64,000 nucleotides of DNA, from NCBI GenBank assembly GCA_948144175.1, contig CANXME010002517.1, forward strand, positions 1,178,001 through 1,242,000, written 5' to 3'. The position numbers and the translations under genes were made by a program. Under the pieces are notes generated by a model. That model ran no database searches. It saw nothing but the letters and a program-made list of their open reading frames with translations, and was not told the origin of the DNA. Position 1 is the first letter of the stretch. Each line of letters starts with the position of its first letter. This stretch comes from Closterium sp. NIES-65 (lineage: Eukaryota; Streptophyta; Zygnematophyceae; Desmidiales; Closteriaceae). Shown one piece after another: positions 23,666 to 64,000 of this stretch.

Positions 23666-24071
23666 TGTTGGAAACAAGTAATTTGAACGCTTCTGTTGTG
23701 TGTCGAAACACTAAGTCGTAAACTAGGTGAAGCACAGCGAAGCATCGGCGAGTCAACACTTGGAGGTTGAGAAGTGAAGAAACCGCTGGAGGTTACGCGA
23801 AAGTCAAAGGTCAGCGACCTTTGACCTGACAAAGTACAGCGCGACAGCAAGGACAAACAACTGACTCGCTATTGAGCAAATGCCCGAATCGTCACTGTAT
23901 CGAACCGCGACAGCAACAGTAAAACAGTTATAAGTTACATCTTTTCATATTCCTTGTACTCTTATAAAAAGCCATGTATCTCTTTGATTAATCAATATAC
24001 TTTGTCCTCACATACCAACGCAAGGTGGTTCAAGACTTATCATTTTACGCTTCCGAATTTACAACAACTCC
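23666..24071 (+). repeat. 5' LTR of copia copy B0, left part (interrupted)
   Basis: It starts TGTTGGAAACAAG and follows the family-B LTR consensus up to ...TTACAACAACTCC, where element B begins. The last 50-odd bases of the same LTR are found after B, at 54223-54274, ending CAGCCCAACA before a primer-binding site. The left flank is GTCTC; the matching right flank lies outside the window. Confidence 0.85.
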
Positions 24072-24517
24072 TGTTGGAAACAATCGGTCCTAAGCGCCTC
24101 TGTCGTGTCGAAACACCAAAGACACAAGCGAAGCAAAACACTATCGAAGCACCAGCGAGTCAACCCTCGGAGGTTGAAGTAACTGTCGGAGGTTACGCGA
24201 AAGTCAAAGGTCAGCAACCTTCGACCTGACAAATACAGCGCGACAGCAAGGACACACAACTGACTCGTTACAGAGCAATTGCCCGAGTCGTCACTGTATT
24301 GAACCGCAACAGCAACAGTAAAGTAGTTATAAAGTGTGTCTTTTCATATTCCCTGTATTCATGTATAATCTTGTATCTCTTTGCTTTAATCAACTTACTT
24401 TGCCCTCACATACTAGCGCAAGGTGGTTCACAACCCTTTAGTTAACGCTTCCGCTACTACACCAACTCTACCCAGAGTTGACCCCTGCAAAGATCCTAAG
24501 GGTTTTTCAGCCCAACA
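24072..24517 (+). repeat. 5' LTR of element B
   Basis: TGTTGGAAACAATC...CAGCCCAACA, 446 bp, preceded by the TSD copy ACTCC and followed at once by the primer-binding site. Confidence 0.92.
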
Positions 24518-24529
24518 TGGTATGAGAGC
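24518..24529 (+). promoter_or_regulatory. Primer-binding site of element B (tRNA-iMet type)
   Basis: TGGTATGAGAGC directly follows the LTR. It differs by one base from TGGTATCAGAGC, the usual plant initiator-Met tRNA complement. The same sequence follows B0's LTR at 54275-54286. Confidence 0.85.
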
Positions 24530-24731
24530 AATCAGGGGGAATTCAACTTCTATACCGACAATATCAATCAGCATGGCTACACAAAAGGAAAGGAGCAACT
24601 CCAACGGCTCCCAGGGCACTACTCCTACTCCACCTCTGGCCTACAAACAGAGGAGGGCACGGCAACAAGACCCAGAGCAACATCTACCGAGACTCCCGCG
24701 AATCAACCTGCACACTTCGACCAGAGCATGA

Positions 24732-24862
24732 TGTCAGAACATTATAGCTTATGCTTTTGTGTAGGCTGTAGTGGGGTAGCCCATATGGGGTACAACCCAA
24801 TTAGGGTTAGTACTTGTACCCAACTGTTTCATATATCATTCATTCTCGTTCTCATCTTCTCA
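24732..24862 (+). repeat. 5' LTR of A1
   Basis: 131 bp, TGTCAGAACATTATAGC...CATCTTCTCA. It is followed by the primer site TGGTATCGAGCAGG at 24863. Confidence 0.9.
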
Positions 24863-24989
24863 TGGTATCGAGCAGGTTCCCCCGTGGGAACTGTGCCTAG
24901 GGCCCACCACATCGACCTTTTTTTTTCCTGCCCGAAGCGCGCTCCGCCCGAGTCGCACTTCGTCGAGCCGCCCTAGCGGCCCTTTCCCC

Positions 24990-25512
24990 TAGCGGCCCCG
25001 CTGCACGTCGCCTCGGCCCCGCCGCCCGTCGCTTCTGTCCCGTCGCCCGTCGTCGCGGCCCCGCCGCCCTACCTCGCGGCCCCGCCGCCCTACCTCGCGG
25101 CCCCGCCGCCCTACCTCGCAGCCCCGCCGCCCTACCTCGCGGCCCCGCCGCCCTACCTCGCGGCCCCGCCGCCCTACCTCGCGGCCCCGCCGCCCTACCT
25201 CGCGGCCCCGCCGCCCTACCTCGCGGCCCCGTCGCCCTACCTCGCGGCCCCGCCGCACTACCTCGCGGCCCCGCCGCCCTACCTCGCGGCCCCGCCGCCC
25301 TACCTCGCAGCCCCGCCGCCCTACCTCTCGGCCCCGCCGCCCTACCTCGCGGCCCTGCCGCCCACGCGGCCCCGCCGCCCTACCTCGCGGCCCCGTCGCC
25401 CTACCTCGCGGCCCCGCCGCCCTGCTCAGCGGCCTCGCCGCCCTTCTGCACCGGCCCCTGCCGCCCTACTCCTGCGGACCCGCCGCCCTACTCCTGCGGC
25501 CCCGCCGCCCTA
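24990..25512 (+). repeat. GC-rich tandem repeat in A1's first leader
   Basis: About twenty copies of a 21-bp unit (CCTACCTCGCGGCCCCGCCG plus one base) fill the leader between the first LTR and the extra internal LTR. It yields Arg/Gly-rich frames on - and Ala/Pro-rich frames on +, which I do not regard as genes. Confidence 0.9.
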
Positions 25513-25643
25513 TGTGAGAACATTATAGCTTATGCTTTTGTGTAGGCTATAGTGGGGTAGCCCATATGGGGTACAACCCAATTAGGGTTAGTACTTGTAC
25601 CCAACTGTTTCATAGTTCATTCATCCTCGTTCTCATTTTCTCA
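25513..25643 (+). repeat. Extra internal LTR copy within A1
   Basis: 131 bp, TGTGAGAACATTATAGC...ATTTTCTCA, closely matching the A1 end LTRs. It is followed by its own primer site (TGGTATCGAGCAGG at 25644) and a second GC-rich leader. No TSD pair marks it as a separate insertion. Confidence 0.85.
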
Positions 25644-25799
25644 TGGTATCGAGCAGGTTCCCCTGTGGGAACTGTGCCTAGGGCCCACCAAATTTCGATT
25701 TTTTTTTCCTGCCCGAAGCGCGCTCCGCCCGAGTCGCGCTCTCACCTCGTCGAGCCGCCCTAGCGGCCCCTATGCCCTAGCGGCCCTCCCTACCTTAGC

Positions 25800-26700
25800 G
25801 GCCCCGTCGCCCGTTCGTGCGGCCCCGCCACCTACTAGCGTGGCCACGCCACCCGCATTCGCGGCCCCGCCGCCCTACGTCGCGACCCCGCCGCCCTAAC
25901 TGCGGCCTCGCCGCCCTACTCCTGCGGCCCCGCCGCCCTACTTCGCGGCCCCGCCGCTCTACGTCGCGGCCCCGCCGCCCTGTTCAGCGGCCCCGCCGCC
26001 CCACTTCGCGGCCCCGCAGCCCCACTTCGCAGCCCCGCCGCCCTGCTTCAGCGGCCCCGCCGCCCGTCTGCTGTGGCCCCGCCGCCCCACTTCGCGGCCC
26101 CGCCGCCCTTCTTCAGCGGCCCCGCCGCCCGTCTGCTGCGGCCCCGCCGCCCCACTTCGCGGCCCCGCCGCCCCACTTCGCGGCCCCGCCGCCCCACTTC
26201 GCGGCCCCGCCGCCCTACTTCAACGGGCCCCGCCGCCCTACTTCAGCGGCCCCGCCGCCCTACGTCTGCGGCCCCACCGCCCGTCTGCTGCGGCCCCGCC
26301 GCCCTACACCTGCGGCCCCGCCGCCCTACACCTGCGGCCCCGCCGCCCTACTTCAAGGGCCCCGCCGCCCTACTTCAAGGGCCCCGCCGCCCTACTTCAC
26401 CGGCCCCGCCGCCCTACGTCAACGGGTCCCGCCGCCCGTCTGCTGCGGCCCCGCCGCTCTCCCCTCCTGCAGCAACGAGCCGCAGACCACCGCGCCGCCC
26501 TGTACCAGAGGAGCCGAGCCGCCCTGCCGCCGAGCCGCCCGGCCGCCCACCAGCCGAGCCACCGTGCAGCCGAGCCGCCCAGCAGCCGAGCCGCCCCGCA
26601 GCCGAGCCGCTGAGCCGCCCCGCAGCCGAGCCGCTGAGCCGCCCAGCAGCCGAGCCGCCCAGCCGCCGAGCCGCCCTACAGTTGAGCCGCCCGAGCAGCC
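25800..26700 (+). repeat. GC-rich repeat leader preceding gag in A1
   Basis: Degenerate repeats of CGGCCCCGCCGCCCTACTTC type, shifting to GAGCCGCCCAGCAGCC type near 26520-26700. The repeats end just before a GGTGAGC motif and the gag start (ATGGCTACCCCTAG, 26774). Confidence 0.85.
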
Positions 26701-29700
26701 CTGTCCGGTGAGCACAACCTCTCTGTCACTGCGTGCCCTTCCCCTACTGCTTGCACTGCTAGTCTACCGTCGTCATGGCTACCCCTAGTGTCCTCGCTTT
26801 TGACGCTGAGGGTCGAGCCATTGACTTTGAGGTCTAGGTCGACGACCTGCAGCTGTTCTTACAGTGCGATAGGGCGGACGGTCTTTCTCTCTTTGACCTC
26901 ACCTCTGGCGCCTCTCCTGCCCCTGCTGCTGATGCTGACCCCACTGTTCGCTCTCAGTGGGCCACCCGCGATGCTGCTGCACGTCTTGCTGTGCGTCGCC
27001 ACCTGCCTACCACTGAGCGCGCGCACTTTAGTCAGTACAAGAGTGCTCAGACCTTGTACGACGCTGTAGTTGCGCGCTACTCTTCCCCTGCCACTGCTGC
27101 ACTGAGCCGCCTCATGCTACCGTACCTCTTCCCTGACCTTGCTGCATTTCCCACAGTTGCTGACCTCATTACGCACCTCCGCACTAGTGACACTCGCTAC
27201 CGCGCCGCGCTGCCTGCTGAGTTCTGCGCCAAGAACCCCCCCCCCATGTACATCACTCTCTATCACATAGTCACTCGCCTCCCTGACTCCCTTCGCGTAG
27301 TCAGGGACCACTTTCTCTCAGTCTGTCCCACCACTCTCACTGTTGACCTCCTAGAGAAGGCCCTCCTAGCAGCGAAGAAGAGCATAGTCGCTGTAGGAGC
27401 CTCTCGTGGTGACCCTCGCACCCCCATCTTTGAGGGGTGTTCCCCTTCCCCCCTGTTGCCCTCTGTCGCCTCTGCTGCTGCGGCCGACCTACTTGGTCTT
27501 GAGTCGGTCAGTGCGGCGTCTGCCCCTAGCGGGAGACGTCGCTCTGGCAAGGGCAAGGGGGGCAAGGGCGTGGGTGGAGCTAGCGGGGGTGGTGGAGGTG
27601 GCGGTGGAGGCGGCGGAGGGAGTGGGGGTGGCGGTGGGAGTGGTGCCGGTGGTGGAGGTGGCGGTGGCAGCGGCGGAGGCGGAGGCGGCGGTGGCGGTAG
27701 CGGTGGGAGCGGAGGCGGCGGTGGCGGCGGAGGTGGAGGCGGCGGTGGTGGAGGAGGTGGAGCTGGTCGAGGTGGTACTTCTCAGCGGAGCGGCTCCAGG
27801 AGTGGTCAGCGCCAGCAGCAGCAGCAGCGTTCTCGGGACATCCCCCCTCCTCAGCAGCTCCGTGAGTGGTACACGCAGCGTCAGCGTGGTGGGGGTTTTG
27901 GCCCGTGCACCTACGTCCTCCGCTCCAGCGACCGCACGGGTGAGCAGTGTGGGGGTGCTCACCCCACCCAGCGCTGCTTTGGCCGCCTGACGGACGCTTG
28001 GCGTCAGCAGTTCCCGGAGGCTAGTGAGATCCCCCGCTGGGGAGAGCTGTCTAGGGCAGGCGTAGCTATCTTTGATCTTGACTTTGATGCTATCCTTGCT
28101 GCCATGTATGCTGTGACTATTAGTGATGAGGGTGACTGTTACCGGTGTTTCCCGCCCGACCCGGGCATTGCTACTGCTGCTCTAGGTACTGGTGAGGCTG
28201 CTGCTCTAGGTGCCAGTGCGTCCGCGCCCTCAGGTGCTGGTGAGTCTGCGCTCTCAGGTACCACGTCGGCTTCGGCCTCCCTCACCTTCACACTTGACTC
28301 AGGGGCTTCTCGCTCCTTCTTTCGAGACCGCACCACACTCACGCCGCTTGGTCGGCCAGTTGAAGTCTCCCTGGCAGACCCCTCTGGGGGTCCTGTCCTC
28401 TCTCACTACTTTCAGACCTTCTCTCCCACCCCGAAGATGACCACTCTTCGGGTGCTGCTACACGTAGCCGCTCAGCGTGACTACGAGCTTCACTCCCTTG
28501 ACTTCAGCACTGCTTTCCTGCAGGGTAGCCTGCACAAGGAGATCTGGTTGCGCCGTCCACATGGCTTCACTGGGACTTTCCCTCCTGGCACCCAGTGGAG
28601 CCTCCGACGACCAGTCTACGGTCTCCGCCAGGCACCGCGCGAGTGGCACGACACACTGAGGACTACGCTTGCGGCTCTTGGGTTTGCTCCGTCTACTGCT
28701 GACCCGTCGCTGTTTCTGCGCACCGACACTTCACTGCCGCCGTTCTACATCCTGGTGTACGTCGACGACTTGGTCTTTGCCACAGCTGACACTGCTGGAC
28801 TCGCCCACGTGAAGTCGGAGCTGCAGAAGAGACACACGTGCACAGACCTGGGTGAACTGCGCAGCTACCTTGGCTTGCAGATCACCCGTGACAGAGCACG
28901 CCGCACCATTACCCTGACTCAGTCACACATGGTGCAGCAGGTCCTTCAGCGCTTCGGCTTCACGTACTCCTCGCCTCATGCCACTCCTCTGTCTACTCGC
29001 CACTCGCTCTCAGCTCTGCCTTCGGATGAGTCCGTAGAGCCGAGTGGCCCGTACCTAGAGCTTGTTGGCTGCCTCATGTACCTGATGACCTACACACGAC
29101 CTGACCTTGCATACCCTCTTAGCATTCTTGCACGCTAGTGAGATCCCCCGCTGGGGAGAGCTGTCTAGGGCAGGCGTAGCTATCTTTGATCTTGACTTTG
29201 ATGCTATCCTTGCTGCCATGTATGCTGTGACTATTAGTGATGAGGGTGACTGTTACCGGTGTTTCCCGCCCGACCCGGGCATTGCTACTGCTGCTCTAGG
29301 TACTGGTGAGGCTGCTGCTCTAGGTGCCAGTGCGTCCGCGCCCTCAGGTGCTGGTGAGTCTGCGCTCTCAGGTACCACGTCGGCTTCGGCTTCGCTCTCA
29401 GTTGCAGTCTCCCTGGCAGACCCCTCTGGGGGTCCTGTCCTCTCTCACTTCTCCACTGTCCTCCCGTGTCCGGCTGCCTCCTCTGGCACCTTGTCTGGTC
29501 TTTACCTCCCCTCGTTCTCTACAAACTTGGTGAGTGGTGCTGACCTGCAGGATACGGGGGTTCACCAGTTCACTCCTGCGAGTCAGCGGGTGACCCACTG
29601 CACGGACGCTCGGACAGGCCGACACCTGGCCACGTTTACACGTCGGTCAGGGTCGAGCCTGTACACACTGACCACTGAGTCTCCTCCAGTCACTGCATCT

Positions 29701-31787
29701 GGTCAGGTAGCTGCGTCTGGTCAGGTGTTTGCTGCAGCGTCCAGGTTTGGTCCTGAGTCTGCCCCCTGCTCGTGTCGCCTCCTGTCTCACGAGACTCTCC
29801 TCTGGCACCACCGTCTTGGTCACCCCTCCCTGCCTCGTCTTCGAGGCATGGCTTCCCGTGTCCTTGTCTCTGGTCTTCCCCGGTCCCTCCCTCCCCTTCC
29901 TCCGGGGCCTGGTCCTTCCAGTGTCCCCTGTGTCGAGGGGCGGCTCCGAGCTGCCCCTCACTCCTCTCAGTTTCCCCCGACAGATGCCCCGCTGCAGACG
30001 CTTCACATGGACGTGTGGGGCCCGGCCCGCGTCCGTGGACAGGGTCACGAGCGATACTTCCTGCTGGTGGTTGACGACTACTCGCGTTACACCACAGTCT
30101 TCCCCTTGCGCAGCAAGGGTGATGTTGCTGAGGTGTTGATCGACTGGATCCGCGCAACTCGTCTCCAGCTCAGGAAGAGCTTCGGCTCGGACTTTCCTGT
30201 TCTGCGTCTGCACTCTGACCGAGGCGGAGAGTTCTCCTCTGGCCTTCTGCGAGCCTACTGTCGTGCGCGAGGCATCCGCCAGACCTTTACGCTTCCAGAC
30301 TCTCCACAGCAAAATGGGATTGCTGAGCGCCGCATTGGCATGGTCATGGACGTCGCTCGTACGTCCATGATGCATGCGGCTGCCCCCCATTTTCTGTGGC
30401 CGTTTGCGGTTCGGTACGCGGCGCATCAGATCAACCTTCACCCCAGGGTCTCCAGACCGGAGACCTCCCCAGCCTTGCTGTGGACGGGGAAGGTCGGCGA
30501 TGCGTCTGCGTTCCGTGTCTGGGGATCTCGGGCGTTTGTCCGCGACTTGTCTACGGACAAGCTGTCCCCTCGTGCTGCTCCCTGTGTCTTCCTTGGCTTC
30601 CCCCCTGACGCCCCTAGGTGGCAGTTCTACCACCCCACCTCTCGGCGTGTTCTGTCCTCCCTGGACGTCACGTTCGATGAGTCAGTACCCTACTACCGCC
30701 TCTTCCCCTACCGCACTCCTTCCCTCCCCCCGCCACCGCACTTCCTTGTGCCAGGTCCCCCCCCGGTAGACCCCCTCCCCCCTCAGGGTCCTGCCCCTTC
30801 AGGTGTGTCCCAGGTAGATGCAGTTGAGCCGGTCGAGGTTGCTGGTGACTCTTGTACTGCTGCGGGTGCTGAGCCTGGGGGTGCTGACTTTGGGGGTGCT
30901 GCGCGCGTGGGTGCTGAGTCCGGGGGTGCTGCGTCTGGGGATGCTGCGACTTGGGATGCTGAGCCTGGGGGTGCTGAGCCTGGGGGTGCTACGACTGGGG
31001 GTGCTGAGTCTGGGGGTCCTTCGCCTGGGGGTGCTGCGTCTGGAGCTGCTGAGCCTTGGGGTGCTGGGTCTGGAGCCACTGAGCCTGGGGGTGCGGAGCC
31101 CGCGGCCGCTGGACCTGCTCGTGTGGCGTCTGGCGGTGCTGGGCCTGCTGGTTCTCCGAGTGCTTCGTCTCGACGGGAGCCACTCTCTCCACAGGAGCTG
31201 CGCGAGTGGTTTGCCCGGCGCTGGAGGCGTACTACTGGAGCTGGTGCTTCTTCGGCTGCTGAGGGTGCTGGTGCCGCCGGTCTCGGAGGTGCTAGTCCTG
31301 CGAGTGCTACTGGAGTCGGAGCTGCTGAGGGTGTTGGCGCTGAGGCTACTGCTGTCAGTCCTGGCGGCGGTCCTGCTGCGGGTGCTACTGGTGCTGCTGG
31401 AGGTACTGGAGCTGGAGGTGTTGTTGACGCTGCTGCTGCCGCTGGGGGTACTGGTGCTGTCCCTGCTGTGTCTGGAGTCGCCGCGCGGCCTCGGCCGTAC
31501 TTTGTTCCGCTCCTTCAGCAGGTTCTTGGTCTTCCTCCTCCCTTAGAGTGTCCACCGCCTGTCCAGTCGCAGTCGCAGTTACCACCGGTCTCCCCACTGC
31601 CTTCTCCTTCTCCGTACACTGGTCCTACTGGAGGTCTTGCTGAGCGTCGTGAGCCTGCGTGTCGTCCTGCGTCGCCTGTTTGTGCTGCTCGCACTAGTGG
31701 TCGCAGTTCGCGTCAGCGTCCTCCTCCTGTCCCTGGCATGCACCGGATGTCTCTGCGTCCGTCCACTGCTCCTCTTCGTGCCCCTTT

Positions 31788-31919
31788 TGTCAGAACATTA
31801 TAGCTTATGCTGTTGTGTAGGCTATAGTGGGGTATCCCATAGGGGGTACAACCCAATTAGGGTTTCATATTTGTACTCACTTCGTTCATAGTTCATCCAT
31901 TCTCGTTCACTTCTTCTCA
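31788..31919 (+). repeat. 5' LTR of A2
   Basis: 132 bp, TGTCAGAACATTATAGC...CTTCTTCTCA. By eye the same as the 3' copy. Confidence 0.92.
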
Positions 31920-32029
31920 TGGTATCGAGCAGGTTCCCCTGTGGGAACTGTGCTTAGGGCCCACCACTACTTCGAACTTTTTTTTTCTGCCCGGAGCGCA
32001 CTCCGGGCTCTCTCTTACTCTGTCGACCG

Positions 32030-32700
32030 GCCTTTAGCCGCCCGCGCGCTGCCCGTTCAGGCCTCACGCCGCCAGCGCGCCGCCCTAGACGCTAGCGCGC
32101 CGCCCGTCCAGGCCCTGTGCAGCCCGCGCGCCGCCCTTTGCAGCTCGCGCGCCGCCCTTAGAAGCCCGCGCGCCACCCTAATCAGCCCGCGCGCCACCCT
32201 AATCAGCCCGCGCGCCGCTCGCTAGGCCCCAGGCAGCCCACGCGCCGTCCACGCGTTGCCCTTAGCCGCCCGACGAGCCGCCCGTGAGCCGCCCGTGGGC
32301 CGCCCGTCAGCCGCCCGTGAGCCGTCAGTGCGCCGCCCGACGCGCCGCCCGTGCGCCGCCCTCGGCTGCCCGTGAGCTGCACGTGCACTGCACGTGCACC
32401 ACCCGTGCGCCACCCGACAAGCCTCCCGTGCAGCCGCCCGTGCAGCCGCCCGTTCAGCCGCCCGTGCAGCCGCCCATCGTGCCGCCCGTGAGCCACCAGT
32501 GCCGCCCGTGCAGCCGCCCGTGAGCCGCCCGTGAGCCGCCCGTGAGCAGCCCGTCACGACGCCCGCGCCGCCCGTGTCACCCGCGTCACCCGAGCCGCGC
32601 GCGCCGCCCGAGCAGCAGAGCCGCCCGAGTCGCCCGTGCCGCTGAACGCCCGAGCCGCCCGAGCCGCCCGAGCCGCCCGAGCCGCCTACGATGCCGAGCG
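32030..32700 (+). repeat. GC-rich repeat leader of A2
   Basis: Degenerate repeats of GCCCGCGCGCCGCC type, then CCGCCCGTGAGCCG type, then CGAGCCGCCCGAGCCG. It differs in unit from the leaders of A1, A3 and A4 but has the same position and composition. Confidence 0.85.
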
Positions 32701-33877
32701 CCGGGTCCTGTGGGGCTGCTGCTACTCCTGGGCCGGCGGAGTTGCTGAGCTGCCGTGTTGCTGTCCTACTGAGCTGCTCGACCCTTCCTCTCTGGTGAGA
32801 CTGTCGACTGCTATCATGGCCACCCCTAGTGTCCTGGCCTTTGACGCTGAGGGTCGCGCCATTGACTTTGCGGTCTGGGTCGAGGACCTGCAGCTGTACT
32901 TGCAGTGCGATTCGGTAGATGACATCTCTCTCTTTGACTTTGCCTCTGGCGCTGTCCCTGCCCCTCCTGCTGATGCTGACCCCACTGTTCGCTCCAAGTG
33001 GGCCCCACGCGATGCTGCTGCACGTCTTGCTGTGCGTCGCCACCTCCCTTCCTCTGAGCATGCACACTTTAGTCAGTGCAAGACCGCTCAGGCCTTGTAC
33101 GACGCTGTAGTTGCGCGCTACTCCTCCCCTTCCACTGCTACACTGAGCCGCCTCATGCTACCTTACCTCTTCCCTGACCTTGCTACCTTTCCTACAGTCG
33201 CTGACCTCTTTACCCACCTTCGCGCTAGTGACACTCGCTACCGAGCTGCGCTTCCTGCTGCCTTCTGCGCCGAAAACCCCGCTCCCATGTACATCACCCT
33301 CTACTTTCTAGTCACCCGTCTCCCTGAGTCCCTTCGTGCTGTTAGGGACCAGTTTCTCTCTGTCTGTCCCACCACCCTCACTGTCGACCTCCTCGAGAAG
33401 TCCGTGCTAGCGGCCGAGAAGAGCATAGTCGCTGTAGGGGCCTCTCGTGGTGACCCCCGCACCCCCATCTTTGAGGGGTGTTCTCCTTCGCCCCTGTTAC
33501 CCTCTGTCGCCTCTGCTGCTGCGGCCGACCTCGTTGGTCTAGAGTCGGTCGGAGCGGCGTCTGCCCCCAGCGGTAGGCGCCGCTCTGGCAAGGGCAAGGG
33601 GGGCAAGGGAGCGGGTGGAGCTAGCGGGGGCGGTGGCGGAGGAGGTGGGGGCGGCGGGGGGAATGGGGGTGGCGGTGGAGGTGGGGGCGGGGGTGGAGGT
33701 ACTAGTGGCGGCAGTGGAGGCGGAGGTGGAGGCGGAGGTGGCGGTGGAGGTGGCGGTGGGAGCGGCGGGGGCGAGGGTGGCGGTGGCGGCGGTGGCGGCG
33801 GAGGCGGGGGTGGCGGTGGTGGAGGTGGTCGGAGTGGCTCGTCCCAGCGGAGCAGCACTGGGGGTGGTCAGCGCCAG

Positions 33878-33916
<39 letters not shown>

Positions 33917-38771: not shown

Positions 38772-38903
38772 TGTCAGAACATTATAGCTTATGCTGTTGT
38801 GTAGGCTATAGTGGGGTATCCCATAGGGGGTACAACCCAATTAGGGTTTCATATTTGTACTCACTTCGTTCATAGTTCATCCATTCTCGTTCACTTCTTC
38901 TCA
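38772..38903 (+). repeat. 3' LTR of A2
   Basis: 132 bp. It is preceded by CCTATGGGGGTG, a short purine-rich stretch that may serve as the polypurine tract, and followed by the TSD CCTTT. Confidence 0.92.
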
Positions 38904-41044: not shown

Positions 41045-41175
41045 TGTCAGAACATTATAGCTTATGCTTTTGTGTAGGCTGTAGTGGGGTAGCCCATATG
41101 GGGTACAACCCAATTAGGGTTAGTACTTGTACCCAACTGTTTCATAGTTCATTCATTCTCGTTCTCATCTTCTCA
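41045..41175 (+). repeat. 3' LTR of A1
   Basis: 131 bp, TGTCAGAACATTATAGC...CATCTTCTCA, followed by TSD CATGA. Beyond it the gag of element B resumes. Confidence 0.92.
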
Positions 41176-41455: not shown

Positions 41456-41589
41456 TGTCAGAACATTATAGCTTACTTATTTGTGTAGGCTATAGTGGGG
41501 TATCCCATAGGGGGTACAACCCAGCTAGGGTTTCCTATTTGTACTCACTTCGTTCATAGTTCACACATTCTCTCGTTCACTTCTTAACA
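41456..41589 (+). repeat. 5' LTR of A3
   Basis: 134 bp, TGTCAGAACATTATAGC...CACTTCTTAACA. TSD GACGT on its left. Confidence 0.93.
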
Positions 41590-48650: not shown

Positions 48651-48864
48651 CCTTCCGTGTACCGTCACATATATATAGTCTTGCTCTTGCTTGCTTGACT
48701 CTTGTATATCTCTATATATATGATCTTGCATGTGAACTGGCCTTGTGGCCCTTGAACTTGTGCTCGGAATGTGTGGTGACTTTGTGATCCACCCTGAGCT
48801 TTGCTTTGCTTTGCTTGACTGGTCTTGTGACCCCTTGTTCTCCCCCACTTTGCCTATGGGGGTG

Positions 48865-48998
48865 TGTCAGAACATTATAGCTTACTTATTTGTGTAGGCT
48901 ATAGTGGGGTATCCCATAGGGGGTACAACCCAGCTAGGGTTTCCTATTTGTACTCACTTCGTTCATAGTTCACACATTCTCTCGTTCACTTCTTAACA
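48865..48998 (+). repeat. 3' LTR of A3
   Basis: 134 bp, by eye identical to the 5' copy; TSD GACGT follows at 48999-49003. Confidence 0.93.
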
Positions 48999-51900: not shown

Positions 51901-53772
51901 CATCAGAAGAAGCCGGACCTCTTCCGTTCTGCTCCGTCGACGTTCCCATGGACGAAGATAACCCTCGCGAAAGTGTCAACGCTGAAACCTTCTACTATTT
52001 CGCCGACAACGGTTACGTAACACCTGCGACAGTCAACACCAACAAAGTAGAACGAGTAGGACCGAACTTCATACCTGATCCAGAAGCGGGAGATGAAGCA
52101 GCTTATCCCGAGGACGCAAATCTTCCCCGCTACTCACAGAGTGAACTGCAAATTCTCGGACTCGTCACCGCAGTCCACGGCACCGCCATTCCTAAAGAGC
52201 CTGCGACAGTTCAACAGGCTCTGGGGGGGGAGCATAAGGAAAAATGGCGCGAAGCCATGGACAAGGAGCTGAAGGCACTGGAGGAACGCAACACGTGGAA
52301 AGTGGTTCCTATCGGCGTGGCACGGAACAAGACAGTGCTCACCGGGAAGTGGGTCTTCCGTGTGAAGACAAAGGCTGACGGCACCATTGACAAATTTAAA
52401 GCTCGCTGGGTTGTACACGGCTTCGACCAAGAACACGGACGAGACTTCACCGAAACTCTCGCTCCGGTTAGCCGCCACACCTCACTACGCATTCTCCTCG
52501 CAATCGCCGCCATGAAGAAGAAGAAGCTGCGACAAATTGACGTCGCGAACGCGTTTCTCTACGCACCTGTTGATGCAGAAATTTTTGTCGAGCTACCGCA
52601 CGGCTCCCACAGAGAACCCAACCAAGTCTGCCAGCTACTCAAGTCACTCTACGGCATCAAGCAGGCTCCGCGACTGTGGCAACAGTACCTGCACGCTCGC
52701 CTCATCCGCATCGCCTTCAAGCAACTACCGCACGATCAAGGCATGTGCCGGCTCACAAAAAAAACGACGACTACATCGTACTAATCGTCTACGTGGACGA
52801 TCTCCTTTACATCGGCTCAACTGACGGCATCACTACCTGGTTCGAAGGGGAGCTGCATCGAGATCTCACGCTCACAGTTTCATCTACCGTCACTCAGTAC
52901 CTCGGCCTCAACATCCGGTAAGAGGAGGACGCGATCTACCTCAGCGCCAAGAAATATGCCGACACTATCGCCAAACGCTTTACGCTCACACCGACACCCA
53001 TCTCCACGCCATACCGATACAGGGCAGGGAACGACAAAGGAAGCTCTGCTCTACTTAAGCCCGCTGGCATACGAGACTACCAGAAGAAGCTGGGATGTCT
53101 TCTCGTCGCAGCCGTCACCTGTCGCCCCGACCTCTCATACTCCGCAAGCCAGCTCGCCACCTACCTCAAGAAGCCTGAAGTAGAACATCTGGCGGAGCTC
53201 GACCGCGCTCTACACTACTTCGTCAGCACCCCAACGATCGGCCTAACTTACTACAAGAACGCAACCACACCGACTAAGTTAATTGGCTACGTCGACGCTG
53301 ATCACGCTGGCGACTCCGACAATAGGCGCTCCCGCACCGGCTACATCTACCGCCTCGAACCTATCGGACCTATCTCTTGGCAATCGAGCAAGCAGGAGTT
53401 AATTGCTCTCTCGTCAGCTGAAGCAGAATATATTGCACTCTGCTCTGCCACCAAGGAAGGACTCTATCTTTGCGAGCTGCTGGAAGAAGCGAAGTTAGCC
53501 GAGTTACCCAACTTTACCCTGTTCTGCGACAACCAGTCGGCAATTCGCATCGCCAACAAGAACGGCTTCGCGAACAGGACGAAACACATTGCCCTGCGAT
53601 ATTTCTTCGTGAAGGACGAGATCGAGAAGGGAAGGCTCGAGCTGTCATACTGTCCCACGTCCGAGATGGCAGCTGACTACCTGACCAAGAAGCTCGAAAA
53701 GCAGAAGTTCGAATACTGCATGCTGCTGACTGGACAGAGCCACGCCAGCGACACTCCAGAAGTGAAGGGGAG
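48999..53772 (+). pseudogene. Remainder of element B: gag (3' part) and pol
   Basis: After A3 the gag of B resumes (related sequence is uninterrupted in B0 at 54780 onward). Readable parts in order: UBN2-type gag core with RNNIT, MAQLTTVEMK and SRCRELRDKLLRCG; a CX2CX4HX4C knuckle (CHICKTSGHPRTHC) near 49675; protease-region sequence (WFLDSCCGQHMCSS) near 50025; a short Thr/Ala/Glu repeat near 50530-50690; integrase with HARMGHPS, FQSDGGGEY and QGVAERMNR; RT with KARWVVHGFDQ and YVDDLLYIGS; RNase H to about 53760. Broken, with several breaks. It is the best preserved guide to family B in the window. Confidence 0.85.
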
Positions 53773-54217
53773 TGTTGGAAACAATCGGTCCTAAGTGCCT
53801 CTGTCGTTTCGAAACACCAAAGACACAAGCGAAGCAAAACACTATCGAAGCACCAGCGAGTCAACCCTCGGAGGTTGAAGTGACTGTCGGAGGTTACGCG
53901 AAAGTCAAAGGTCAGCAACCTTCGACCTGACAAATACAGCGCGACAGCAAAGACACACAACTGACTCGTTACAGAGCAGTTGCCCGAGTCGTCACTGTAT
54001 CGAACCGCAACAGCAACAGTAAAGTAGTTATAACCGTGTCTTTTCATATTCCCTGTATTCATATATAATCTTGTATCTCTTTGCTTTAATCAACTTACTT
54101 TGCCCTCACATACTAGCGCAAGGTGGTTCACAACTCTTTAATTAACGCTTCCGCTACTACACCAACTCTACCCAGAGTTCACCACTGCAAAGATCCTAAG
54201 GGTTTTTCAGCCCAACA
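53773..54217 (+). repeat. 3' LTR of element B
   Basis: TGTTGGAAACAATC...CAGCCCAACA, followed by the TSD copy ACTCC and then by the severed right end of B0's 5' LTR. Confidence 0.92.
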
Positions 54218-54222
54218 ACTCC

Positions 54223-54274
54223 TACCCAGAGTTTAGCCTTGCAAAGATACTAAAGGCTTTTTCTCAGCCCAACA
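54223..54274 (+). repeat. 5' LTR of copy B0, right part
   Basis: TACCCAGAGTTTAGCC...CAGCCCAACA completes the LTR begun at 23666. The primer site TGGTATGAGAGC follows at 54275. Confidence 0.85.
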
Positions 54275-56879
54275 TGGTATGAGAGCTATCAGGGCAAACT
54301 CAACTACTTTCAAGACACCTACAACATCAGAAGGCATGGCAACACAGAAGGAGAGGAGTTCCTCTAACGATTCTCCCGGTACTACTCCTACTACACCTCG
54401 TGCCTCTGGCCTCCAAACAGAGGAGGGCACAGCAACAAGACCAGCAGCTGGGTCCACTGAAACTCCCGCAAATCAAGCCGCGGGCCTTGACCCAAGCATG
54501 ATGGAGAAGTTCTTCTCCTTCATGTTCTTCTATGAATAACACCAGCAAGGGGCACCTGCGCAGTCAAACAACAGCAACAACAATAACGATGTGACACCGA
54601 AGAGCCTCGACGGTTCATCCTACGCGCAAGGAAATCAGCAACAGCAACCTACCTTCGCCTCGTACGAACCCCAGCGCGGTTCCGTCAGTTTCATGCCGCG
54701 CCAGCAGCCTTCACCTAAGCAAGAGAAGACATTGGATGCACTTCAAGTTCGGTCGCAGTTTGCGCATGTCTTAAAACTGCAGACATCAAGACCGTTCGAC
54801 GGAAAAGACTTCTTTACCTGGTCGCTCAAATTCGAGCTAATGATGGAAGGCACACAGATTCTTGGCTTCTTCGACGGGTCTCTGCCATATCCAACACACG
54901 GGACGCAATAGGACAAACAGCAGTACACATACCAGTCGATGATGGCGTACACGATCTTGCTGAGGAACATAACTCCAAACCAGCAACAGAACATTCGGTC
55001 TTACCGAGGATACGGCAACTCCGCTGAGCTCGCGTACAACCACTTGAAGAACATGTATCAAGCAACGAACAGCGTCAATCAAAGTCGGTTAATGGCACAA
55101 CTGACAACAGTGGAAATGAAACCGGACGAAAAGGGGATGGCGTATATCAGCCGCTGTCGCGAGCTGCGCGACAAGCTTCTTCGATGCGGATGGACGATAT
55201 CCGAAGACGCCTTCGTCACAGTCATCATCGGCGGTCTTGGTCCTCAATGGCACTCCACCCGAGCCATTCTCCGAGCCCACAGGAAATTCTCCGAAGCAGC
55301 ACTCTGCGCCGAGATTAACGCCGAGCAGCAAGACATGGACCTGTAAGAAGAAAAGCAGAAGAGGAAGACGTCAGTACCTGAGTTCGCTTTCCACACTCAG
55401 CGGCGCTGGAACAACAACAATCACCGGCAGAACAAGTACCAAGGACAGCAACCCGTACCACCGTTTTGTCATCTCTGCAAGACGTCGGGTCATCCCCGCA
55501 CACACTGCCCAAACCGGCAGCAGTCAACGCAGCGGCATCTTCGACCTTCAGGCAGTCAAGTAACATCCACGCAGACGCACCCCATGAGTCAGCCGCAGTC
55601 CTCAACAACATCACCAACGCAACCTGCACAAGGAGCAAGAAACATCGTCAGTTGCATGGCAAGACTGGGAGATTTTTGCATCACTGAATCACCGCCACAT
55701 TACTCACCGGAAGAGCAACTCGACAACAGCACTCCTCGCCGCGGATTACTTCAACCGAACGTACGCAACCATCGCCCAAAACGAACCATCCGGGAAGGAT
55801 ACCTGGTTCTTGAACAGTTGCTGCGGGCAGCATATGTGCTCCTCGGGTCGCTTCGTTGAACGGGAATACCAACTTCAACGAGAAGTCGTGATCACCATCG
55901 CCAACAACCAGAACCTGCGCACACGACGACAAGGCGTGGTTCAACTTCAATCACGGGAAACGAACGTTATACTACAGATGTCGAACGTAAGTTGTAGCAG
56001 AAGGACTCGGCTACAACTTACTGAGCGTCAGTCAGCTGATGGCGAAAGGCATCCATCTCGAAGCAGACAGCACCACTCAGGAGTTCAAGCTGTACCACGG
56101 GAGAGGCGGGCTTTACATCGGGAAGGCGGTCCTAAAGAATAACGTCTTTGTCCTCGACTTTGTTCCAGATTTAGGCACCGCCGATAGCGACGGAATCGTC
56201 ACCTTCACCTCCTGGACGCACCCACCGGATCTTGATCCTGACTTCAGCCCCGAAGGCTTCTGGTATTCGCACACTATTCCTGAGGCAGAACGAACAAGAG
56301 CATTAGCAACGATTCAACACTTGGCAGCAGCAGAGACAACATCGGCAGCAGAAGAGACAACACCGGCAGCAGCAGAGACAACATCGGCAGCAGCAGAGAC
56401 AACATCGGCAGCAGCAGAGACAACATCAGCAGCAGCAGAGACAACACCAGCAGCAGCAGAGACAACATCGGCACCAATCGCGGGTCCTTCAACTGCACCA
56501 GCCCCAATCGATGGCGACACTCCACCGACTCCTGCGCAACAACAGAATCCAACTCCAAGAGAAGTCCATCGAAGCGCAAATTTCACCGCAGGCTTCCACT
56601 CCAACTCCAATTTATACCGTCGCTCACCCGGACATCGAGCTGGCGAAGATATCTGGCATGCATGAATGGGACATCCAAGCAACACAATCAGAGCAGGCGT
56701 GCTCGATAAAGACTCACTGCTTCTAGCCGACGGAAGCGAACTTCGACGAGCTCGCGGAACTTGCTTTACCTGCCCCGAAGCCGACTTACCACATCACCCG
56801 TTTGTACCTCATCACAACCCTAGTGCTCCAACTTACGCGCCTCTGGAGAAAGTGTACAGCGACATCCAGTACAATCGCG
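54275..56879 (+). mobile_element. Copia copy B0, gag to integrase part (internal to the oldest element)
   Basis: Same order as B: primer site, gag start near 54336 (MATQKERSS), gag core (MMAYTILLRNITP, SRCRELRDKLLRCG), a Cys/His knuckle region near 55470, protease region near 55810, a Thr/Ala/Glu repeat near 56330-56470 and the beginning of the integrase. It then gives way to A4 at 56880. Broken, with many breaks, in keeping with being the first layer of the nest. Its pol end and 3' LTR lie outside the window. Confidence 0.85.
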
Positions 56880-57119: not shown

Positions 57120-57990
57120 ACCTTCGCGCCGCCCTTAGTGGCCCCTCTCACGGCCCCTTACGCCGCCCTTACGGCCCCTAGCGCCGACCTCTGCGGCCCC
57201 TCGCGCCGCCCTTACGGCCCCTTACGGCCCCTCGCGCTGCCCTTACGGACCCTTACGGCCCCTCGCGCTGCCCTTACGGCCCTCGCAAGGCCCCCTTTCG
57301 GCCCCTCGCGATGCCCTTTCCGGCCCCTTACGGCCCCGTCGCCGCCCCGTTTCGGCCCCTTGCGGCCCCTCTGCGGCCCCGTCTAGGCCCCTTGCGGCCC
57401 CTCTGCGGCCCCTCTGAGACCCCGTCGCCGCCACCTACTACCCCGTCGCCGCCACCTGCGGCCCCGTCGCCGTCACCTGCGGCCCCGTCGCCGCCACCTG
57501 CGGCCCCGTCGCCGCCACCTGCGGCCCCGTCGCCGTCACCTGCGGCCCCGTCGCCGCCACCTGTGACCCCGTCGCCACCACCTGCGGCCCCGTCGCCGCC
57601 CCCTGCGGCCCCGTCGACGCCACCTACGGCCACGCAGCCGCCACCTGCGGCCCCGCCGCCACCTGCGGCCCCGTCGCCGCCACCTGCGGCCCCGTCGCCG
57701 TCACCTGCGGCCCCGTCGCCCTCCCCTAGCGGCCCTGTCGCCGCTCAGCCGCCCAGCGACCGAGCCGCCGAGCAACCCTGCAGCCGAGCCGCCCACCTGC
57801 CGAGCAGCCGAGCCGTCCAGCAGCCGAGCCGCCCAGCAGCCGAGCCGCCGAGCAGCCGAGCCGCCCAGCAGCCGAGCCGCCCAGCCGCCGAGCCGCCGAG
57901 CCGCCCAGCAGCTGAGCCGCCCAGCCGCCGAGCCGCCCAGCAGCCGAGCCGCCCAGCAGCCGAGCCGCCCTGCCGCCGAGCCGCCGAGCC
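57120..57990 (+). repeat. GC-rich repeat leader of A4
   Basis: Three successive repeat types: TACGGCCCCTCGCGCCGCC-like (57150-57400), a 21-bp CACCTGCGGCCCCGTCGCCG unit (57440-57720, about 14 copies), and 16-18-bp CGAGCCGCCCAGCAGC units (57770-57980). It ends in GGTGAG at about 58045, 30 bp before gag. Confidence 0.88.
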
Positions 57991-59821
57991 GCCCTACTGT
58001 CGAGCCGCTGCTGTCCCTAAACCCCGGCCCTCCTTCCTCGGACTGGTGAGTTCACTCCCTCCTAGGCCACTTCAGTCATGGCTACCCCCAGTGTCCTTAC
58101 TTTTGATGCTGAGGGCCGTGCCGTTGACTTTGAGGTCTGGGTCGATGACCTCCAGCTGTTTCTCCAGTGCGATAGGGCAGACGGACTCTCTCTGTTCGAT
58201 CTCACCTCTGGTGCCTCTCCTGCCCCGCCTGCTACTGCTGACAGTACTGTTCGCTCACAGTGGGCCACACACGATGCTGCTGCTCGCCTTGCCGTGCGTC
58301 GCCACTTACCGACCACTGAGCGTGCACACTTTAGCCAGTACAAGAGTGCCCAGACCTTGTACGACGCTGTAGTTGCACGCTACTCTTCCCCTGCCACTGC
58401 TGCACTGAGCCGCCTCATGCTACCGTACCTCTTCCCTGACCTTGCTGCCTTCCCCACAGTCGCTGACCTCATTACGCACCTCCGCACTAGTGACACTCGC
58501 TACCGCGCTGCGCTTTCTGCTGAGTTCTGCGCCAAGAACCCCCCCACCATGTACATCACCCTCTACTACATAGTCACCCGGCTCCCTGACTCTCTCCGTG
58601 TAGTCAGGGACCACTTCCTCTCAGTTTGCCCCACCACTCTCACCGTTGACCTCCTCGAGAAGAGCCTCCTAGCAGCAGAGAAGAGCATAGTCGCTGTAGG
58701 AGCCTCTCGTGGTGACCCTCGCACCCCCGTCTTTGAGGGGTGTTCCCCCTCCCCCCTCTTGCCCTCTGTTGCCTCTGCTGCTGTGGCCGACCTCGTTGGT
58801 TTCGAGTCGGTCGGCGCTGCGTCTGCCCTGAGCGGGAGACGCCGCACCGGCAAGGGCAAGGGGGGCAAGGGCGCTGGAGGGGTTGGCGGGGGCGGTGGAG
58901 GTGGTGGTGGAGGCAGTGGAGGGGGTGGGGGTGGTGGTGGGAGTGGTGGCGGGGGTGGAGGTGTCGGTGGCAGCAGTGGAGGCGGAGGAGGCGGCGGCGG
59001 TGGCGGAGGGAGCGGAGGCGGCGGAGGTGGTGGAGGCGGCGGAGGCGGCGGAGGTGGCGGAGGCGGCGGCGGCAGCAGTGGACCTGGTCGCAGCTCTGCG
59101 CAGAGGAGTGGCTCCAGTGGTGGTACGCGCCAGCAGCAGCAGCGCAGTCGTGAGACTCTTTCCGCTGAGCAGCTTCATGAGTGGTACGCTGCGCGTCAGC
59201 GCGGTGGGGGTACGGGTCCCTGCACCTACGTTCTCCGCACCAGCGACCGCGCTGGTGAGCAGTGCGGGGGCCCGCACTCCACCCAGCGCTGCTTCGGCCG
59301 CCTGACGGACGCGTGGCGTCACCAGTTCCCTGAGGCCTCTGAGATCCCTCGCTGGGGAGAGCTGTCTAGGGCGGGGGTTGCTATGTTTGATCTTGATTTT
59401 GATGCTATTCTTGCTGCCATGTATGCTGTTGCTGATAGTGTTGAGGGTGACTGTTACTTGTGTGTTCCGCCTGACCAGGGCATTGACCCTGCTGCTCTAG
59501 GTGCTGGTGAGGCTGCTGCTCTAGGTGCTAGCGCGTCTGCTGCCCCAGGTGCTGGTGAGTCTGCCCTCTCAGGTACCACGTCGGCTCAGGCCTTACACAC
59601 CTTCATCCTTGACTCGGGTGCTTCCCGTTCCTTCTTTCGAGACCGCACCACACTTACGCCGCTTAGTCGGCCGGTTGCTGTCTCCCTGACGGACCCCTCT
59701 GGGGGTCCTGTCCTTGCTTGCTACTCCACTGACTTACCATGTCCGGCAGCCCCCTTTGGCACCCTGTCAGGTCTCTACCTCCCCTCGTTCTCTACAAACT
59801 TGGTGAGTGGAGCTGATCTAC

Positions 59822-60036
59822 TGTTAAGAAACTAGCGAGAGTTTGGCTTAGGAGCCATAGTAGCTTAGGTGACTTGGTGAAGTTCGAGGGTGTAGGGTGT
59901 AAGGAAAATGTCGAGAGAATTGTGGAAGGAGAATGTGGAAACTAGAAAGGAGGGGGATACAAGTAGTAAGCCCTAAAAGGGTTATACTCACTTTTGAGTA
60001 CCCCACTACAGACTAGACATGCATTATGATCTGACA
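59822..60036 (+). repeat. Solo LTR of an unrelated family (C) within A4
   Basis: 215 bp beginning TGTTAAGAAACTAG and ending TGATCTGACA, flanked by TSD TCTAC (59817-59821 and 60037-60041), interrupting A4 between its protease and integrase parts. It has no coding capacity and is AT-richer than its surroundings. No primer site follows it, as expected when LTR-LTR recombination has removed the body. The strand is assumed. Confidence 0.82.
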
Positions 60037-63000
60037 TCTACAGGATAGGGGGGTTGACTAGTTCACTCCTGCGAGACAGCGGGTGACCCACTGCACGTGT
60101 GCTCGGACAGGCCGACACTTGGCCACGTTCACCCGTTGGCCGGGGTCGAGCCTGTACACCCTGACTACTGAGTCTCCTCCGGCTGCTGAGCCTGGTCAGG
60201 TCGCTGCGTCGAGTCAGGTGTTTGCTGCAGCGTCCAGGTCTAGTCCTGAGTCTGCTCCCTGCTCGTGTCGTCTCCTATCTCACCAGACTCTCCTTTGGCA
60301 CCACCGCCTTGGTCACCCCTCTCTGCCTTGTCTCCGAGGCATGGCCTCCGGTGTCATTGTCTCTGGTCTCCCCCGGTCTCTCCCTCCCCTACCTCCGGAG
60401 CCTACCCCTACCTGCGTCCCCTGCGTCGAGGGGCGACACCGCGCCGCCCCTCACTCCTCCGAGTTTCCTCCGACAGAGGCTCCGTTGCAGACTCTTCAGA
60501 TGGACGTGTGGGGCCCCGCCCGCGTCCGTGGCCAGGGGCACGAGCGTTACTTCCTGTTGGTGGTTGACGACTACTCGCGTTACACCACGGTCTTCCCCTT
60601 GCGCAGCAAGGGTGAAGTCACTGAGGTGTTGATCGACTGGATCCGCGCAGCTCGTCTCCAGCTCAGAGAGAGTTTCGGCTCGGACTTTCCTGTTCTGCGT
60701 CTGCACTCTGACAAAGGCGGGGAGTTTTCCTCTGCCCGTCTGGGAGCCTTCTGTCGTGCACAGGGCATCTGCCAGACCTTCACGCTTCCGGCCTCTCCAC
60801 AGCAAAATGGGATTGCTGAGCGCCGCATTGGTATGGTCATGGACGTCGCTCGTACGTCCATGATCCATGCGGCTGCCCCCCATTTTCTGTGGCCGTTTGC
60901 GGTTCAGTACGCGGCACATCAGCTCAACCTTCAACCCCGGGTCTCCTTGCCAGAGACCTCCCCCACCTTGCGGTGGACGGGGAAGGTTGGCGATGCGTCT
61001 GCGTTTCGGGTCTGGGGATCTTGGGCGTTTGTCCGCGACTTGTCTGCGGACAAGCTGTCTCCCCGTGCTGTTCCCTGCGTCTTCCTTGGCTTCCCCCCTG
61101 ACGCGCCTGGTTGGCAGTTTTACCACCCCACCTCGCGCCGTGTTCTGTCCTCCCAGGACGTCACCTTTGACGAGTCGGTGCCTTACTACCGTCTCTTCCC
61201 CTACCGCACTGCGCCCCTTCCCCCGCCGCCGCGCTTCCTTGTGCCACGTCCTCCCCCGGTAGACCCCCTCCCCCCTCAGGGTCCTTCCCCGTCAGGTGTG
61301 TCCCAGGTAGACGCACTCGAGCCTGTCGAGGTAGCTGTTGACTATGGTGCTGCTAGAGGTGCTGAGCCTGCGGGTGCCGGGTCTGGAGGTGCTGAGCCTG
61401 CGGGTGTTGAGTCTAGGGGTGCTGAGCCTGGGGGTGCTGAGCCTGGGGGTGCTGAGCCTGGGGGTGCTGAGCGTGGGGGTGCTGAGTCTGGAGGTGCGGA
61501 GCCTGGGGGTGCGGAGCCTGGGGGTGCGGGGCCTTGGGGCGCTGAAGCTGCTCGTGTGACCGCCGGCGGTGCTTCGTTGAGGCGGGAGCCACTCTCTCCG
61601 CAGGAGCTGCGCGAGTGGTTTGCCCGGCGCTGGAGCCGTGCTGCTGGAGCTGGAGGCACTACTGTTGCAGCTAGTTCCGGAGGTGCTCGTACTGGCGGTG
61701 CTGGAGCTGCTGGGCCTGGGGGTGCTGCTGGGGCTGCTAGAGTTGGTCCTACTGGAGCTGCTGGCGGTACTGGAGCCGCCGGTCCTGCTGGAGTTGGTGC
61801 TGCTGGAGCTGCTGGAGCTGGAGCTGCTGGGGGTGTTGGCGCTGGTGGTTCTGCTGACGCTGGTGCCTCTGAGGGTGCTGGAGTTGGCGCTGTTGGAGCT
61901 TGAGGTGCTGCTGGCGCTGGTGCTGCCGCTGGGGGTACTGGTGCTGTCCCTGTTGGTTCTGGAGGCGCTGCGCGGCCGCGGCCATACTTCGTTCCGCTCC
62001 TTGCACAAGTTCTTGGTCTCCCGCCTTCTACTGGTCCTGCTCCTCACTTAGAGTGTCCACAGCCCGTCCAGTCGCAGTCACAGTTACAACCCGCCTCCCC
62101 TCTACCTGCTCCTTCTCCCTACACTGGTCCTACTAGAGGTCTTACTGAGCGTCGTGAGCCTGCGTCTCGTCCTTCGTCGCCTGTTCGTGCTGCTCGCGCT
62201 AGTCGTCGTGCTCCACGTCCTCCTGCGGTCCCAGACACACCCCGGATGGCACTTCGTCCTTCCACTGCTCCTCTGCGTGTCCCGTTGCCGTCTCCTCCAG
62301 AGTCCTCTCTTCCTGTTCTCCCTGACCCGGCCTCTGACTTTCTTCGTGCTGCCAGTCCTACTGTCACGCGTCTCCTGGCCACTGTTGTCACTGACCCTCC
62401 TTTGAGTCCACTTCTGCGTCTGCCTTAGTGGCAGAGCTTGTCGACTTCACTGCTCGTTGTCGTCTAGACTACGCCACTAGTCTTGTTGCTGAGTCCGAGT
62501 CTGTCTGTCCTCCGTCCGTCGGGGGTGGGTGTGCTCCTAGCACGGACGTCCTTGAGGACAGGCAAGAGGAGTTCCAGTGTTTTGCTGCTGCTTTGCCTCA
62601 TCTCGTGTCCACGCTAATTGCCCCTAAGGGAGACCCAGATGCACCAGACATCCCGACTCCTCGATTGTACGCTGAGGCGATCGAGGGTCCCTACTCCTCT
62701 CAGTGGAAGTCAGCCATGGACGCAGAGATGGCTTCCTGGAAGTCCACAGGCACCTACGTCAACGAGGTTCCCCCACCTGGGGCGAACATCGTCAGTGGCA
62801 TGTGGATTTTCAGGGTGAAGCGGCCGCCGGGTTCTCCGCCTGTCTTCAAGGCGCGTTACGTGGCTCGAGGCTTCAGTCAGCGGCAGGGAGTTGACTACTT
62901 TCAGACCTTCTCTCCCACCCCGAAGATGACCACTCTTCGGGTGCTGCTGCACATAGCCGCTCAGCGCGACTACGAGCTTCACTCTCTTGACTTCAGCACA

Positions 63001-63602
63001 GCTTTCTTGCAGGGCAGCCTGCACGAGGAGATCTGGCTGCGCCGCCCACCTGGCTTCACTGGGTCGTTTCCTCCTGGTACCCAGTGGAGCCTCCGGCGGC
63101 CAGTCTACGGTCTCCGCCAGGCGCCCCGTGAGTGGCACGACACACTGAGGACCACACTTGCGGATCTTGGGTTTGCTCCTCCTACAGCCGACCCGTCGCT
63201 GTTTCTGCGCACCGACACCTCTTTGGCGCCGTTCTACATCCTCGTGTACGTCGACGACTTGGTCTTTGCCACTGCTGACACTGCTGGACTCGCCCACGTT
63301 AACTCCGAGCTGCAGAAGAGACACACGTGCACAGACCTGGGTGAAATGCGCAGCTACCTTGGCTTGCAGATCACCCGGGACAGAGCACAGCGCACCATTA
63401 CCCTGACTCAGTCACACATGGTGCAGCAGGTCCTTCAGCGCTTCGGCTTCACGTACTCCTCGCCTCAGGCCACTCCTCTGCCTACTCGCCACTCGCTCTC
63501 AGCTCTGCCTTCGGATGAGTCCGTAGAGCCGAGTGGCCCGGATGCAGAGCTTGTTGGCTGCCTCATGTACCTGATGACCTGCACACGACCTGACCTTGCA
63601 TA

Positions 63603-64000
63603 TGCGGAGATAACTGCAGCAACGGGAGTTAGACTACGGGCTAGGCACGTGTGCTCGTGTGATCTCTACGTTCTCTGTTCCTTAGTCGTTTTCCTTGTGC
63701 ACACACTACATGCTAGTTCACGGGGAAAATTGGCAAGAGTTTCACTAGGAAAAGTTCATAACAATTGGTACAATGAAGTTGGCACAGCAAGACTACATCA
63801 GAGCAAGCATTCAGGTCGGCCAACTGCCAACGCAGCTTGGTCGACCGTGCTCCAGCACGACTTGGTCGACCGCGCTCCAGCAAGGCAAGGTCGACGGCGT
63901 GCCAACGTCACAGGTTGACGGCGTGACAGCGTTGCTCACGCAGGACAGCAGTGCACCCTGCTTCGCAGTTGCGTGCAGGTGATTGGCGTGCAGAGTCTCG
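63603..64000. mobile_element. Left end of an unidentified insertion (D) cutting A4's RNase H
   Basis: At 63603 the A4 sequence stops (the other copies continue ACCCTCTTAGCATTCT) and unrelated sequence starts with TGCGGAGATAACT. An LTR-like block could run to ...CATAACA at 63763, after which ACAATGAAGTTGGCACAGC opens a 69-codon frame containing repeats of a GGTCGACCG motif. No primer site or domain is recognisable and the right end is outside the window, so an LTR element is plausible but unproven. Confidence 0.45.

Follow-up and report, generated by a model that had tools for sequence, protein, structure and literature searches.

In this study we analyzed 64,000 nucleotides (hereafter the window) of Closterium sp. 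NIES-65, corresponding to positions 1178001-1242000 of contig C2219 in a genome of 874 Mb, in which copia retrotransposons lie piled up, one within another. Very probably, this nested cluster was built by successive integrase-made insertions and then altered by ordinary recombination, and the assembly carries it in two diverged copies, most likely haplotypes, the second lying on contig C2383. Eleven insertions were recognized in total, named Bm, B0, B, A1, Y, A2, A3, A4, C, D and A5 (Table 1). Elements were delimited by self-comparison of the window, the ends of their long terminal repeats (LTRs) were next determined to single-base precision, and the nest was completed with 30 kb of flanking DNA to the right of the window.

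All nine elements read at both ends (Bm, B0, B, A1-A5 and D) carried paired LTRs with TG...CA termini and 5-bp target-site duplications (TSDs), as did Y on C2383. For the five insertions contained in the window (B, A1, A2, A3 and C), the TSDs were exact at ends defined by homology. Since homology had fixed the ends beforehand, five bases would be expected to match by chance with a probability of about 1/1024 for each. We also joined the flanks of each insertion with one TSD copy and aligned them to an uninterrupted relative. This empty-site test gave a continuous pre-insertion site in all five cases, with the target in single copy in the relatives; in two cases (A3 and B) the relative differed by one base or gap within the five-base word. 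A preliminary description of the window had proposed these five TSDs and the insertion order B0 > B > A1 > A2, with A3 after B and C after A4. The TSDs are confirmed, and together with the empty-site tests they support the order. It had also placed A4 in B0 and D in A4, which could not be proved within the window; the 30-kb flank proves both (TSDs TCGCG and GCATA). The nest, for which it listed a solo LTR, an unidentified insertion and six copies of copia, is real, but the copy count was too low, because Y inside A1 was missed, D is itself a copia element, window positions 1-1145 belong to Bm, and A5 lies beyond the window.

The family assignment rests on domain order and homology. In A3, Pfam domains follow the order gag_pre-integrs, rve, SH3, RVT_2, placing integrase before reverse transcriptase (RT) as in copia elements, and D shows the same order, although two neighbouring frames share its RVT_2 match. 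In B, rve, SH3 and RVT_2 follow in that order at 50148-52784. A1, A2, A4 and A5 were assigned to copia through DNA homology to A3, and B0 and Bm through homology to B. The B gag region is backed by a downstream open frame (49020-49745) ending in a zinc-knuckle-like stretch. Sequence beginning with TGG follows the 5' LTRs of A1, A2, A3 and B, which may suit primer binding by initiator Met transfer RNA. A comparison of the A3 RT with viral contigs gave three pattern matches, none of which was confirmed, and thus no relative there.

The outermost element, B0, ends at 82131 with TSD GTCTC, so that this insertion (23666-82131) now spans 58.5 kb; its two 5' LTR parts together differ from its 3' LTR at 20 of 454 sites. 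Bm starts 4,952 bases left of the window, has an exact TSD (ACCCA), and showed no insertion within it. C has TG...CA ends and a TSD and is without an internal region, as a solo LTR should be. Its reverse complement scored 51-60 against all five A-family LTRs tried (maxima of 500 shuffles, 26-32) and 17 against the B LTR (shuffles up to 27), and its forward strand scored 16-19, inside the shuffle range. By these scores, C is a minus-strand solo LTR related to the A-family LTRs.

A second copy of the nest and an element within A1

A genome-wide search with a protease-to-RT junction, described below, brought up C2383 (160 kb) as a second, collinear copy of the locus. The two contigs are collinear over the whole nest and at both ends of C2383, where about 4,000 bases aligned at C2383:1524-5500 differ by a single substitution and C2383:158047-159627 matches at 97.7%. 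Ten of the eleven insertions are present in both copies, and only A3 is confined to the window copy; at its position C2383 has a single GACGT in uninterrupted B sequence, that is, the empty site. On C2383 the TSDs of Bm, A4 and D are exact and those of B and A5 have one mismatch each, and the position of C falls in a collinear block without any gap of at least 20 bp. LTRs on the same side of an element had bases common to both copies, and different from the opposite side, at 13 sites in B, 6 in A4, 4 in A5, 5 in D and 2 in Bm. These LTR quartets contained one contrary site (in D), and at no site did the LTR pair within a single copy group together, which shows that B, A4, A5, D and Bm predate the split.

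The second copy also changes how A1 is read. In the window, A1 opens with an LTR and leader (24732-25512), followed by a second LTR at 25513. Its protease region passes at 28404 into RT sequence (28405-29137) and then returns to protease from 29134. The preliminary description took this for one element, and a single insertion whose extra LTR-leader and RT block came from template switching during reverse transcription or from tandem complementary DNA, an origin argued for tandem LTR elements of rice, would fit several features of the window: only one outer TSD pair is visible, the two joins show the microhomologies ACT and GCTA, and the RT block differs from the RT of A1 at 19 of 456 sites, exactly as A3 does, yet the duplicated protease differs at only 2 of 264. 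This explanation is nevertheless hardly credible given C2383, where an internally deleted element, Y, occupies 86493-90996 within the A1 leader with both LTRs and the TSD CCCTA on each side. In a single-insertion tandem element no TSD would surround the inner element, and the CCCTA flanking Y equals the five bases left of 25513 in the window. Y is followed on C2383 by the remainder of the A1 leader and by the A1 protease region at 92701. What the window contains is therefore two elements, A1 and Y, and the window has lost the 2,653 bp that C2383 retains between the Y RT and the A1 protease. In a whole-genome pattern search the RT-to-protease junction matched the window only. We had initially read the join as template switching from the disagreement between RT and protease, a reading that C2383 overturned.

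Comparison with C2383 also accounts for how little the two protease stretches of the window differ. There, Y differs from A1 at 11 of 264 protease sites, in keeping with its 5' LTR (7/131) and with its RT compared with that of A1 in the window (25/714), so that divergence is about 3.5-5.3% throughout. Given these distances, the low value in the window points to conversion. At 28031-28373 the window Y carries the A1 base at 10 of 13 informative sites, compared with 3 of 76 upstream, which makes the near identity a local feature; this tract is probably a gene conversion from A1 to Y. In both locus copies Y is without the stretch between protease and RT, and the resulting junction had two genome-wide matches (up to two mismatches), one per locus copy. 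This inner deletion could represent a template switch.

Two further deletions distinguish the copies. In the window, the RT of A2 is about 248 bp shorter than on C2383, with the join near 37273. C2383 is without the A2 3' LTR, about 2.27 kb being missing in all, and its last LTR is that of A1 (1/131 differences from the A1 3' LTR, 14/130 from that of A2). On C2383, A2-like bases yield to A1-like bases between 38670 and 38740, with 99 of 104 sites A2-like before the switch and all 16 A1-like after it, the pattern expected if the 3' ends of A2 and A1 had recombined through their homology.

The following history accounts for the nest. B0 and Bm are themselves insertions, each with its own TSD in the flanking DNA. 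B entered the LTR of B0, A1 entered B, and Y and A2 entered the leader and pol of A1, respectively; A4 and A5 inserted into B0, and D and the solo LTR C into A4. After the copies parted, the window copy probably gained A3, lost the segment between the Y RT and the A1 protease by microhomology-mediated deletion, lost the short RT segment of A2, and underwent the brief A1-to-Y conversion. The C2383 copy probably underwent the recombination between A2 and A1.

Divergence and status of the two copies

Substitutions between the copies are unevenly spread. Per kilobase, we counted about 2 at 7-24 kb of the window, 9 at 3.6-6.7 kb, 5-11 around Bm and about 10-13 within the nest, and the stretch at 82-94 kb (C2383 side to 148027) had none. 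Zero substitutions over 12 kb beside a nest at about 1.2% indicate that the divergence is blocky.

Such a pattern (no substitution at 82-94 kb next to about 1.0-1.35% in the nest) gives some support to a recent segmental or whole-genome duplication in place of alleles. We regard this as unlikely. C2383 matches the order of C2219 at both tested ends, as an alternative-haplotype contig would. An exon of the neighbouring B-box gene likewise exists as two near-identical copies, one on C2219 and one on C2383, with two partial matches near 70%. As a further comparison, we searched the genome for Rpb2 domain 6 and obtained 77 matches. Of the four putative nuclear Rpb2 relatives, three occur twice, the two copies resembling each other in exon order and spacing (exon groups on C1346/C2109, C783/C1266 and C1969/C2027, with C1872 alone), the spacing within contig pairs being similar and not identical; this count leaves out three weak matches (C165, C841) as well as matches in long frames on C824, C97, C1848 and further contigs, which we take to be plastid copies. 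Paired relatives are expected from an uncollapsed diploid assembly or from whole-genome duplication. Considering these observations together, a two-haplotype assembly is likeliest.

It is also conceivable that the complex A1 region or the differences between the copies are assembly artefacts, since the repeats are long and near-identical and a first look at the genome gave 70,632 RVT_2 candidates. This is very improbable, because the presence and absence of A3 agree to the base with its TSD and empty site, and because the TSD of Y on C2383 matches the flank remaining in the window, which would not be expected from an artefact.

Several points weigh against the history of a haplotype pair with successive insertions. 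Either contig could hold local assembly errors, and that the contigs are alleles and not a recent duplication is something we infer. The comparison covered C2383 apart from 5501-51005 and 148028-158046, the first of which spans about 6.5 kb more on C2219. The proposed conversion tract has three sites that keep the Y base (28039, 28157 and 28363), and LTR divergence reverses the nesting in two of eight pairs, not significantly.

To characterize the divergence further, we polarized changes with family relatives in seven nest blocks (29000-82000 against C2383 93000-135000). Among 208 differences, 183 could be assigned, and the remainder had a third base (15) or a gap (10) in the relative. Derived changes numbered 134 on C2383 and 49 in the window, an approximately 2.7-fold excess (p = 2.5e-10), including 87 and 24 C>T or G>A changes, respectively. 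The LTR quartet of D showed the same direction, as C2383 had 29 changes of its own and the window 5 (p = 4e-5). The counts for Bm, which flanks the nest, were 16 on C2383 and 15 in the window, with 4 unassigned (p = 1.0), and the asymmetry differed between the nest and Bm (p = 0.02). The excess could stem from unequal mutation, from homogenization in the window copy or from errors in the sequence. The nest on one copy may have changed about 2.7 times faster since the split, as if mutagenic or methylation-linked silencing had struck the repeats of one haplotype, a suggestion that we consider doubtful.

LTR divergence and insertion position

The nesting order was expected to provide an internal clock for LTR divergence, and this expectation was borne out only in part. 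Divergence follows the nesting in six of seven parent-child pairs within the C2219 copy, and in six of eight when Y in A1 is added. Neither reversal is significant: B0/A4 gave p = 0.81, and A1/Y, with 6/131 differences for Y against 3/131 for A1 on C2383 or 2/131 in the window, gave p = 0.28 or 0.50. Alignment of the LTR pairs therefore does not significantly contradict the nesting. Of the ordered pairs, two fell below 0.05 without correction, B > A3 at p = 0.046 and A4 > D at p = 0.005, and the A-family LTRs, at about 132 bp, are too short for a fine clock.

The two insertions into the gag region of B had further suggested a local hotspot. B-family elements (6149 bp) have received four A-family insertions, at about positions 660, 935, 3059 and 5050. 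By chance alone, the two nearest would be 275 bp or less apart with p = 0.44, so that a hotspot is not supported.

Comparison with other plant genomes and further features

In kind, the nest is ordinary. Nested arrays are known in maize and barley (PMC11899658), and a survey of nested LTR retrotransposons covered 25,144 elements in 15 plant species (PMC7251063). As in that survey, elements in Closterium insert into elements and the nesting gives an absolute order. Some nested copies have LTRs more diverged than those of their host; such reversed pairs made up 1042 of 4126 (25%) in the survey and two of eight in Closterium. The Closterium nest differs from those clusters (PMC7251063) in that homology marks every element having both LTRs as copia or copia-like, and in that the entire nest exists twice, so that events can be dated relative to the split between the copies. 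Nested copia clusters being already known, it is this two-copy history that is useful: the split between the two copies supplies an independent time mark, separating insertions that came before it from those that came after, and the locus shows the weakness of short LTRs as clocks.

The window form of A1 also resembles the tandem LTR elements described in rice (PMC11899658), with an LTR-leader-LTR-body-LTR arrangement, one outer TSD pair and polymorphism between copies. The absence of an inner TSD was part of the reason why the rice element was taken to be a single insertion, and the discussion of that study left its mechanism open. Unlike the rice case, the inner TSD survives in the other Closterium copy, and whereas the rice arrays alternate whole internal regions with common LTRs, A1 does not (PMC11899658). 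Since the inner TSD is present on C2383, the window A1 is a tandem look-alike produced by nesting followed by deletion. A nested copy with a small deletion can thus mimic a single tandem insertion once the inner TSD is lost, which bears on the diagnosis of tandem LTR elements.

Table 1. Features of the nest, in window positions (numbers above 64000 lie in the right-hand flank). Fractions are differences between the two LTRs of an element.
Feature	Position	Strand	TSD (positions)	Remarks
Bm, B-family copia, 3' part	1-1145	+	ACCCA	LTR 719-1145; 5/427
B0, 5' LTR, first part	23666-24071	+	GTCTC (23661-23665 / 82132-82136)	Interrupted by B; matches 3' LTR 81674-82131; right TSD outside window
B0, resumed	54223-56879	+		5' LTR end (to 54274) and internal region; runs beyond window to 82131
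B, copia, in B0 5' LTR	24072-54217	+	ACTCC (24067-24071 / 54218-54222)	LTRs 24072-24517 / 53773-54217; 13/445
A1 (X), copia, in B gag region	24732-41175	+	CATGA (24727-24731 / 41176-41180)	LTRs 24732-24862 / 41045-41175; 2/131
Y, copia, in A1 leader	25513-29137	+	CCCTA (left, 25508-25512)	3' end lost in window
Probable gene conversion tract in Y protease region	28031-28373	+		Mostly A1-like bases in window, not in C2383
GCTA microhomology, Y RT joined to A1 protease	29134-29137	+		2,653 bp of C2383 missing here
A2, copia, in A1 pol	31788-38903	+	CCTTT (31783-31787 / 38904-38908)	LTRs 132 bp; 0/132
A3, copia, in B gag region	41456-48998	+	GACGT (41451-41455 / 48999-49003)	LTRs 134 bp; 0/134
A4, copia, in B0	56880-72149	+	TCGCG	Window part to 64000; 6/125
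C, solo LTR, in A4	59822-60036	-	TCTAC (59817-59821 / 60037-60041)	215 bp; TGTTAAG...CTGACA
D, copia, in A4	63603-71191	-	GCATA	Window part to 64000; LTRs 1102 bp; 11/1102
A5, A-family, in B0	74068-81025	-	TTACC	Beyond window; 4/133
A-family leader minisatellites	24993-25512, 25788-26700, 32044-32686, 41657-42740, 57143-58008

The A-family leaders contain long G+C-rich minisatellite arrays with units of about 9-93 bp, which differ strongly between copies. A1 and A2 translations include a gag zinc-knuckle-like motif, and the A3 frame (43900-43990) is without its first cysteine stretch. A5 is without about 616 bp of the RT region, and the breakpoints in A2 and Y fall in the same region.

Two genes lie to the left of the nest. 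The B-box gene (16150-21972, minus strand), about 1.7 kb from B0, encodes two B-box zinc fingers according to Pfam and has a CCT-like exon recognized by eye, and is CONSTANS-like. An F-box protein gene lies at 2088-5006, and a CAG-type repeat within it (3509-3734) underlies a long run of serines.

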